Origin: an uncultured Porphyromonadaceae bacterium
GTDB lineage: Bacteria > Bacteroidota > Bacteroidia > Bacteroidales > Muribaculaceae
Direction: 5' to 3'
DNA length: 64,000 nucleotides
Assembly (NCBI GenBank): GCA_947177185.1
Contig: CAMWTJ010000001.1
Location: 62,001 to 126,000 of the forward strand
Of the stretch, positions 16,508 to 19,963 are shown piece by piece. The translations under genes and the position numbers were made by a program. The notes under the pieces were generated by a model, which searched no databases, was not told where the DNA came from, and was given only the letters and a program-made list of their open reading frames with translations. Position 1 is the first letter of the stretch; the number at the start of each line of letters is the position of its first letter.

Positions 16508-17458
16508 TTATAGTGTCAGTTCCATCTGTATGTCGCCACGCTCATATGCCGGGTGATACTCCTTGAGCTCCGTGAAGCCCAGCTTGCGGTAGAGAGAAAT
16601 TGCAGGCTTGAGTATGGTGTTGCTTTCGAGGAATATGCGTTTGCCGCCGAGTGCTTCGGCGCAACTCAACGCAGCGCGGCACAACATTTCGCCAGCCCCG
16701 GTGCCGCGTGCTTCGGGGTCGACTGCGAGTTTGGCAATCTCAAAATCATAGTCCGCGTTGTCCATCGGGCACAGCGCCACCACGCCCATTGGCTTTCCGT
16801 CGACCAGTGCCACAAATATGCGTCCGCCTTTGGCAAGAATAGACGATTCGGGGTCATTAAGCACTTCGAGGTCGTGCGGTTCGAGCGACCAGTGGCTGTT
16901 TATCCACATTATATTCAGGCGCTTGAACACCATCAGATGCTCGGCGCGATAGTCCACAATCTCTACCTTGCGATTATCCCTGCTTTTCTTTATTTCCTTG
17001 ACGCGTCTGAGCAGCGATTTCTCTGTCAGCGCACACTCCCAGTTGTCGAGCGCAGACCACAGCCTGTCGGATGCTGTGGCGTCAATCGATGCCACAGCGC
17101 GTTCCACATCGGCACACACTTTGCGGAGCCTTTCGTTGAGCCTCACGCCCTCGGCTGTAAGGCTTACCACGGTAGAGCGGCGGTCGTCGTCAGACTTTCC
17201 GTAGTCGGCCAGGCCTGCTGCCTTAAGCTCTTTTACTATATTGCTCACCGAAGGATGCGTCTGACCGATGGCCGTAGCGATACCCGTCACCGAATGGTCT
17301 TCGCCATTTGAAAGCATGTACAGCACAGGAAACCATTTTGGTTTTATGGCAATGTCATACAGCTTGTATATTTCAGCCGCATCCCGAGTCACGGCATCAG
17401 CCAGCCATCGCAATCGGCTGCCGACAGTAAGTATGCCTGATTTTTCAAAGAGAATCAT
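16508..17458 (-). CDS. Bifunctional MarR-type HTH regulator/GNAT N-acetyltransferase
   Basis: N-terminal MarR winged helix (TGIATAIGQTHPSVSNIVKELKAAGLADYGKSDDDRRSTVVSLT), C-terminal GNAT (LAVDPEARGTGAGEMLCRAAL). Confidence 0.9.
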   Translation of the reverse strand: MILFEKSGILTVGSRLRWLADAVTRDAAEIYKLYDIAIKPKWFPVLYMLSNGEDHSVTGIATAIGQTHPSVSNIVKELKAAGLADYGKSDDDRRSTVVSLTAEGVRLNERLRKVCADVERAVASIDATASDRLWSALDNWECALTEKSLLRRVKEIKKSRDNRKVEIVDYRAEHLMVFKRLNIMWINSHWSLEPHDLEVLNDPESSILAKGGRIFVALVDGKPMGVVALCPMDNADYDFEIAKLAVDPEARGTGAGEMLCRAALSCAEALGGKRIFLESNTILKPAISLYRKLGFTELKEYHPAYERGDIQMELTL

Positions 17459-18172: not shown

Positions 18173-19597
18173 ATGATAAACCGCACATTGATTCGTGTGA
18201 AAGTGGTGCAGATGCTGTATTCTTATCTGCTCACACAGAGCGATTTTCGCATCGAGCCCGCTCCCGAAGCTCCATCGGCCGACCGCAGGTTCGGCCATTC
18301 AGTATATACCAGTCTTCTTTTGTCGATAATGGAGCTTTCGGGCATAGCCACGGACCGCTCGCGCGGAGCAGCTGTGGCCGCTTCCCCGAAACTGATGCGT
18401 GAAAACAGGGTGGGAGCCGCGCTTGCCGCCACCGACGAGCTCAAGACGGTGCTCAACCGCGGAGCTTCTGATTTTGAAAAACTGCGTCCGCTGCTTGCGC
18501 GCGTGGCCGAAACAGTCGAAGCGTCTGTGGCATACCGCGACTATAAGAAAATCAAACAGCGCACGCCTGCCGACGATGCCCGTTTCTGGAGCGTTGTTCT
18601 CGAAACCGTGTTGCTGAAAGACCCCTCCGTGGTGCAGGCTTTCCGCTCCATGCAGGGCTATACCGGCAAGGGACTTGAAATGGGACTTGCGTCGGCAAAG
18701 ACCTCGCTCGCCGCTTTCGGCGAGTCGCGCCTTGGCTACATGAACGCGAAGGCCGACCTGCGCCGCTCGCTGGACAAAGCCTACGACCTGTATTTCGGCA
18801 TCTTCGAGCTCATAGTGGAGCTGACCCGCGAACAGCGCAAGCGCCTGGAAGCCGCAAAAGAGAAATATGTGCCTACGGCGGAGGACCTCAACCCTCCCAC
18901 GCGTTTTGTGGAAAATGCATTTGTGGCCCGTCTTGAGTCCGATGCGGAGCTGACAGAACGCATGGAGAAAACCCCGTCGGCATGGTCGGACGATTTCACT
19001 CTTGTTCCGCAGCTGCTCGACGAGATACTCGCATCGGATATTTACCGTAAATACATGGACGCTCCGGCCACCGACTACGCCACCGACGTAGAGTTCTGGC
19101 GCGAGATATGCAAATCGGTGCTCCTCCCGAGCGAAGCCCTTGCGGAAACAATGGAGGCACGTTCGGTGTTTTGGAATGATGACATGCAGGTGATGGGCAC
19201 GTTCGTGCTCAAGAGTCTCCGTCAGATGGCTTCCGTGTCGGAGGATGCGGAGTCGCTGCCCTTCCTCCCGCAGTTCAAGGATTCGGAAGACGAAGCCTTT
19301 GGCGACGAACTGTTCACGCTGGCGGTGAAACATCGCGACGAATACCGTTCGTATATCGACCGTTTTATCAACGCCGAACAGTGGGACCCGGAACGCATAG
19401 CGTTCATGGACATCGTGATAATGACGTGTGCCATAGCCGAGCTCATAAACTATCCCGCGATTCCCGTGCCTGTCACCATGAACGAATACGTCGAGATAGC
19501 CAATTGCTACAGCACGGCCCGCAGCGGTCAGTTTGTCAACGGCGTGCTCTATGCCGTATGCGAATACCTCCGCGGCCAGGGACTGATTACGAAATAA
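18173..19597 (+). CDS. nusB: Transcription antitermination factor NusB, enlarged Bacteroidetes form
   Basis: MINRTLIRVKVVQMLYSY N-terminus and canonical NusB C-terminus (WDPERIAFMDIVIMTCAIAELINYPAIPVPVTMNEYVEIANCYSTARSGQFVNGVLYAV); about 150 aa extra segment. Confidence 0.93.
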   Translation: MINRTLIRVKVVQMLYSYLLTQSDFRIEPAPEAPSADRRFGHSVYTSLLLSIMELSGIATDRSRGAAVAASPKLMRENRVGAALAATDELKTVLNRGASDFEKLRPLLARVAETVEASVAYRDYKKIKQRTPADDARFWSVVLETVLLKDPSVVQAFRSMQGYTGKGLEMGLASAKTSLAAFGESRLGYMNAKADLRRSLDKAYDLYFGIFELIVELTREQRKRLEAAKEKYVPTAEDLNPPTRFVENAFVARLESDAELTERMEKTPSAWSDDFTLVPQLLDEILASDIYRKYMDAPATDYATDVEFWREICKSVLLPSEALAETMEARSVFWNDDMQVMGTFVLKSLRQMASVSEDAESLPFLPQFKDSEDEAFGDELFTLAVKHRDEYRSYIDRFINAEQWDPERIAFMDIVIMTCAIAELINYPAIPVPVTMNEYVEIANCYSTARSGQFVNGVLYAVCEYLRGQGLITK

Positions 19598-19618
19598 CAA
19601 TATTTAAACATAACAACA

Positions 19619-19963
19619 ATGCTTACCAACACAATTCTCCTCCAGGCAGCCGGCGGCAGCGCCGGTTTCCTTCAGAGCTGGGGACTTATCATCATCCTCT
19701 TCGTGGTGTTCTATTTCTTTATGATTCGTCCTCAGCAGAAGCGTCAGAAAGAAATCCGCAAGTTCCGTGAGAGCCTTGGCAAAGGCGACTCCGTGGTCAC
19801 TGCCGGCGGCATACACGGAAAAATAGTCGAGGCTTCCGAAAATGCCACATATTTCCTGCTTGAAGTAGCCCCCGGCGTGCGCATCCGCATCGACAAGGGC
19901 TCTGTGTATCCCTCTGCAGCTGAAGCCAATCAGGCCGCCGAGCAGCAGGGCGACAAGAACTGA
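19619..19963 (+). CDS. yajC: Preprotein translocase subunit YajC
   Basis: One TM; FYFFMIRPQQKRQKEIRKFRESLGKGDSVVTAGGIHGKI. Confidence 0.95.
   Translation: MLTNTILLQAAGGSAGFLQSWGLIIILFVVFYFFMIRPQQKRQKEIRKFRESLGKGDSVVTAGGIHGKIVEASENATYFLLEVAPGVRIRIDKGSVYPSAAEANQAAEQQGDKN

Follow-up and report, generated by a model that had tools for sequence, protein, structure and literature searches.

Two copies of the Bacteroidia NusB module in a Muribaculaceae NusB point to an ancient tandem duplication within nusB

Introduction

NusB, a small and conserved transcription-elongation protein, belongs to the core factors of rRNA transcription. In Escherichia coli, NusB and S10 (NusE) bind boxA on the nascent RNA and are part of the rRNA antitermination complex together with NusA, NusG, SuhB and S4 (PMC7819879, PMC10931766). 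The canonical NusB proteins (PF01029), such as those of E. coli and Thermotoga, have about 139-142 aa. The NusB of the class Bacteroidia has one extra helical module of about 160 aa, which separates the first helix from the core, but this architecture is little discussed, and we found no open-access paper that treats either the architecture or a doubled module.

Here we analyzed a 64,000-nt stretch of DNA (the window) from an uncultured bacterium of the family Muribaculaceae, order Bacteroidales (GenBank assembly GCA_947177185.1, contig CAMWTJ010000001.1, positions 62,001 to 126,000). The NusB encoded in the window resembles the single-module NusBs of the class Bacteroidia (304-316 aa) in its first helix, its module, its C-terminal core and its yajC neighbor, and the signature residues of the single module are found in the second of its two module copies (copy 2). 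However, the single-module proteins have one module where the window NusB has two. The C-terminal core also matches canonical NusB, whereas about 330 additional residues separate the first helix from the core in the window protein. As we found no open-access paper describing it, the doubled-module protein is apparently an undescribed form of the Bacteroidia-type NusB.

The nusB gene of the window and its neighborhood

The nusB gene was located at positions 18173-19594 of the forward strand, with the stop codon at 19595-19597. Its translation (MINRTLIRVK...GLITK) has 474 aa, in agreement with the length of about 474 aa given in a preliminary description of this DNA. Residues 1-25 (18173-18247) form an N-terminal helix that is common to all Bacteroidia NusBs, as indicated by the matches of the short forms and by invariant columns in a 15-sequence alignment. 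The extra module directly follows this helix. It is referred to as copy 1 (residues 36-187; 18278-18733) and is lineage-specific and fast-diverged, as indicated by hhalign comparisons with copy 2 and with the short forms and by a conservation table. Copy 2 (residues 194-355; 18752-19237) represents the ancestral Bacteroidia NusB module and has the signature NP..N, W271, E328, S331, WNDD 334-337, F344 and K347. The core of the NusB fold follows at residues 373-474 (19289-19594). The preliminary description placed copy 1 at 18290-18748 and copy 2 from 18749; the resulting residues 40-192 of copy 1 are close to the measured 41-186, but position 18290 is the beginning of copy 1 and not of the gene, which begins at 18173.

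Curated families recognize only the C-terminal part of the window NusB. PF01029 matched residues 370-462 with 61.6 bits (cut-off 23.1, E 1.3e-16). TIGR01951 matched residues 363-463 with 86.1 bits and an E-value of 2.3e-24, which is 2 bits short of its cut-off of 88.35, probably because the two modules part helix 1 from the core. As this shows, long forms can escape family models that are tuned to short NusB. Solved NusB structures match the same C-terminal part by sequence, and Thermotoga NusB (PDB ID 1tzt) was matched by profile at residues 358-463 (E 7.9e-16).

Directly downstream of nusB on the same strand lies yajC (19619-19960; PF02699, E 7.9e-29), followed by the genes of a YbbR-like protein, coaE, an ftsY-type SRP GTPase and a RimO-type radical SAM/TRAM protein. 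We gathered 121 NusB proteins from the order Bacteroidales, and a tblastn search found YajC downstream on the same strand at all 121 nusB loci, long and short forms alike. Furthermore, nusB is a single-copy gene; almost all genomes sampled gave one match for each complete gene. Therefore, the window gene is the ordinary, standard nusB of its genome.

Two other features of this region were recorded. On the opposite strand, an open frame of 433 aa (18299-19600) spans nearly all of nusB and most likely just results from codon composition. At 16508-17458 on the reverse strand, a 316-aa protein combines a MarR-type DNA-binding domain with a GNAT acetyltransferase, and its gene adjoins a cupin gene and a separate second GNAT gene.

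Length classes and distribution of the two-module form

The lengths of the 121 NusB proteins are strictly bimodal, with 51 proteins of 304-316 aa and 70 proteins of 464-496 aa. The former all have a single module, consistent with the typical Bacteroidetes NusB length of near 300 aa given in the preliminary description. The short NusBs match window residues 1-24/32 and then pick up again at about residues 188-194, and therefore the long form has about 165 extra residues after the first helix. Within Muribaculaceae, the long form was present in 87 of the 114 NusB-bearing genomes sampled, representing 20 of 30 genera. The short form was present in 10 genera, and one genus (g50) has both forms. 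No two-module NusB was found in the 247 genomes of the order outside this family.

We also searched a 398-genome sample of the phylum with a module HMM representing all kinds of copies. Each of the 98 other genomes of the class Bacteroidia that were matched has exactly one module, and none has a two-module NusB, while two modules were found in the genome of the window (copy 2 at 215.8 bits, copy 1 at 120.9 bits). Outside the class Bacteroidia, there was one weak match only. The module is therefore a feature of Bacteroidia, and its doubling is a feature of the window's family.

Three long open frames were checked as possible two-module NusBs and rejected. The long open frame in genome G057 corresponds to a 308-aa NusB with an upstream open-frame extension. 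The protein L148 (G056:C84) has one module, within which an insert of about 45 aa lies next to the position equivalent to WNDD. The extra length of L147 (G182:C94), from another family of the same order, is a C-terminal tail. This tail consists of more than 150 residues of acidic low complexity, almost pure Asp/Glu (DDEDDDDED...).

The Cytophagales-like NusBs of the same class (families f129-f131; L132 and L221-L230), which have about 378-398 aa, also contain an additional segment of about 70 aa directly after the first helix. This segment was considered as a remnant module and rejected, because it is not homologous to the module (hhalign Prob below 1). It is therefore an insertion that arose independently at the same site, and the junction after the first helix seems to be a hot spot at which Bacteroidia NusB grows.

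Homology of the two module copies

Profile-profile comparison revealed that copy 1 (residues 41-186) and copy 2 (residues 194-355) of the window NusB are homologous. The copy 1 profile aligned with copy 2 over its full length (146-147 columns) with an hhalign Prob of 99.2, a score of 121 and an E-value of 9.7e-20, although single pairwise E-values should be taken loosely and the weight of the argument is borne by the shuffled and reversed controls. Reversed profiles scored 19-22.5 and the NusB core scored 12.7. The highest score was 22.6 among 200 column-shuffled versions of copy 2 and 66.8 among 200 block-shuffled versions (12-column blocks). The copy 1 profile was built from long forms, and the single module of the separate short NusBs (~308 aa) provides an independent test of the homology; the match was again clear (Prob 98.6, E 5.3e-16, score 106). 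Even within the window protein by itself, the Smith-Waterman score between copy 1 and copy 2 was 70, compared with a shuffle mean of 30.7 (sd 5.3), and none of 2000 shuffles scored as high.

Copy 1 was not recognized by Pfam and PDB sequence searches. However, an HMM built from copy 1 only, when run in six frames against 299 whole Bacteroidota genomes, retrieved both copies of the window NusB (E 5.5e-13 for copy 2) and another 19 genes, all of which are NusB. No free-standing copy 1 and no non-NusB lookalike was seen in this search. An AlphaFold model of the window NusB from the single sequence without an alignment had a mean pLDDT of 36.5 and a pTM of 0.23, which are too low to interpret; that copy 1 folds like copy 2 is our conjecture.

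The preliminary description proposed an internal tandem duplication of the Bacteroidetes-specific region from an alignment by eye. The controlled hhalign comparisons, the whole-genome search with the copy 1 HMM, the comparison of lengths and the trees described below all support this proposal, and the repeat is significant in both the profile and the Smith-Waterman comparisons. Judged from sequence, an ancient tandem duplication of the module within an otherwise ordinary single-copy nusB thus accounts for the long form.

Gain and loss of copy 1

In a protein tree built without copy 1, the distribution of the long form requires one gain and one loss. The loss is found in genome G085, whose 313-aa NusB (L084 / L146) is nested among the long NusBs of genus g50 (support 100/99) and contains the NEYTEIAADYS motif of these long NusBs. 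An RpoB tree likewise grouped G085 with two other g50 genomes (100/100), while the other short genera formed a clade. On RpoB, a single clade of all long forms was rejected (AU p 3.9e-5), and this tree is compatible with a doubling either before or after the split from the short genera. The three other g50 genomes sampled keep copy 1, while the junction in G085 reads LISREDINEVSRLQARKTLDKALAKAYELY. G085 is one draft genome, in which nusB is located well inside a 181-kb contig. With a doubling that was gained once, selected and lost once in a single-copy gene, the long, short and reverted species offer a ready comparison for studying what the Bacteroidia module does.

Conservation and selection of the two copies

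The ancestral module signature (NP, W, E, WNDD, F, K) is carried by copy 2, which keeps the residues that are near-invariant in single modules, namely K231, P241, N248, W271, Y291, Y294, W309, E328, S331, WNDD 334-337, F344 and K347. Copy 1 keeps Y45, S118 and W139 (100%) and in most cases also Y121, Y124 and D135, whereas the equivalents of K231, P241, W271, E328, S331, WNDD, F344 and K347 have been lost. It has conserved residues of its own, including G167 (97%), D37 (87%), F at position 163 (86%), where the window protein has Y, and R158 (83%). Among the long forms, copy 1 has a mean pairwise identity of 0.31, which is lower than that of copy 2 (0.47) and that of the core (0.59), and it is thus the least conserved part of the long NusB. 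Nevertheless, its dN/dS values in the four closest pairs are 0.03, 0.06, 0.09 and 0.07 (distant pairs were left out owing to saturated dS), which indicates that copy 1 is under purifying selection although it is less conserved over long times.

Possible role of copy 1

As the ancestral features persist in helix 1, in copy 2 and in the core, we infer that the core function of NusB in rRNA antitermination with S10 and boxA RNA is retained in the long form. Our best explanation as a whole, to which we assign a probability of roughly 0.58, is that the module was doubled once in the standard nusB, that the ancestral job is still done by the first helix, copy 2 and the core, and that copy 1 has become a second lobe with a lineage-specific surface. 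A module located inside a compact fold would have to begin and end close together, and a second module in tandem could be added without breaking the fold. A single duplication in an ancestor of most genera of the family would have placed the new copy after the first helix and ahead of the module already present. The ancestral parts, namely copy 2, the first helix and the core, would continue to act with S10 on a boxA-type signal of the nascent rRNA in the antitermination complex. Copy 1 retains scaffold residues without the signature, which makes a second lobe with an altered surface the most likely reading. This lobe would most likely be helical and stacked, and it may offer its lineage-specific surface to some antitermination or ribosome-assembly component.

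The suggestion of the preliminary description that the doubling could alter partner binding is plausible, and binding of a partner by copy 1 itself is our conjecture. A more specific proposal, which we put forward tentatively and with more doubt than confidence, is that copy 1 is a lineage-specific adaptor recruiting a protein or RNA element that is confined to this gut family's complexes for antitermination or ribosome assembly. If so, a core transcription complex would come in different versions among close relatives, and the reversion in G085 would serve as a built-in control.

We compared known partners of NusB between the two forms. S10 has 101 aa and is nearly invariant in long- and short-form species, and neither its length nor its sequence shows a change tied to NusB length. 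The few S10 positions that differ follow descent, with the reverted G085 having the letters of the long clade. S10 is therefore unlikely to be the partner with the change. A SuhB-type gene (inositol-phosphatase family, PF00459) was not found in the genome of the window (G000, 90.9% complete) or in G064, G076 and G085, which may bear on the antitermination factors used in these genomes. Related genomes have one, and SuhB-like genes are patchy across long and short forms. Not found in some genomes of both forms, this partner does not track the long form.

A serious rival to the lobe with a lineage-specific surface is that copy 1 is a passenger, either neutral or of structural use only. It would stem from a tandem duplication that by chance folded harmlessly, and it would be kept because it packs against the rest of the protein, without a partner of its own. 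Copy 1 is less conserved than the other parts of NusB and G085 lives without it, so that a weak or dispensable role is possible. Its fast divergence and the loss of its signature residues agree with such a role, and the different insert of ~70 residues at the same junction in other Bacteroidia families suggests that the site tolerates insertions. However, copy 1 was retained in most of the NusB-bearing genomes of the family (87/114) in strictly one length class, its dN/dS in close pairs is well below 1, and it has near-invariant residues specific to the lineage. We consider the passenger role less likely than the lobe with a lineage-specific surface.

Origin of copy 1

In a module tree, the copy 1 sequences sampled all come together in a single clade (100/99), whose stem has a length of 3.7 changes per site. 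Because of this very long stem, the origin or donor of copy 1 is unreadable beyond the single clade. As the exact donor is hidden, copy 1 might have been imported by recombination from another Bacteroidia NusB module instead of being duplicated in place. However, the module tree places copy 1 within the modules of its own family, with weak support owing to the long branch, and local duplication is the simplest explanation for an in-frame tandem copy beside its source, which makes an import improbable. That copy 1 is an unrelated helical domain with a compositional resemblance to copy 2, as might be supposed from the helix-rich nature of both copies and the silence of the Pfam and PDB sequence searches, is hardly credible given the co-linear full-length profile match (E 1e-16 to 1e-19) far above the reversed, column-shuffled and block-shuffled controls, the unprompted retrieval of NusB from whole genomes by the copy 1 HMM, and the fully conserved W and Y that align between the two copies.
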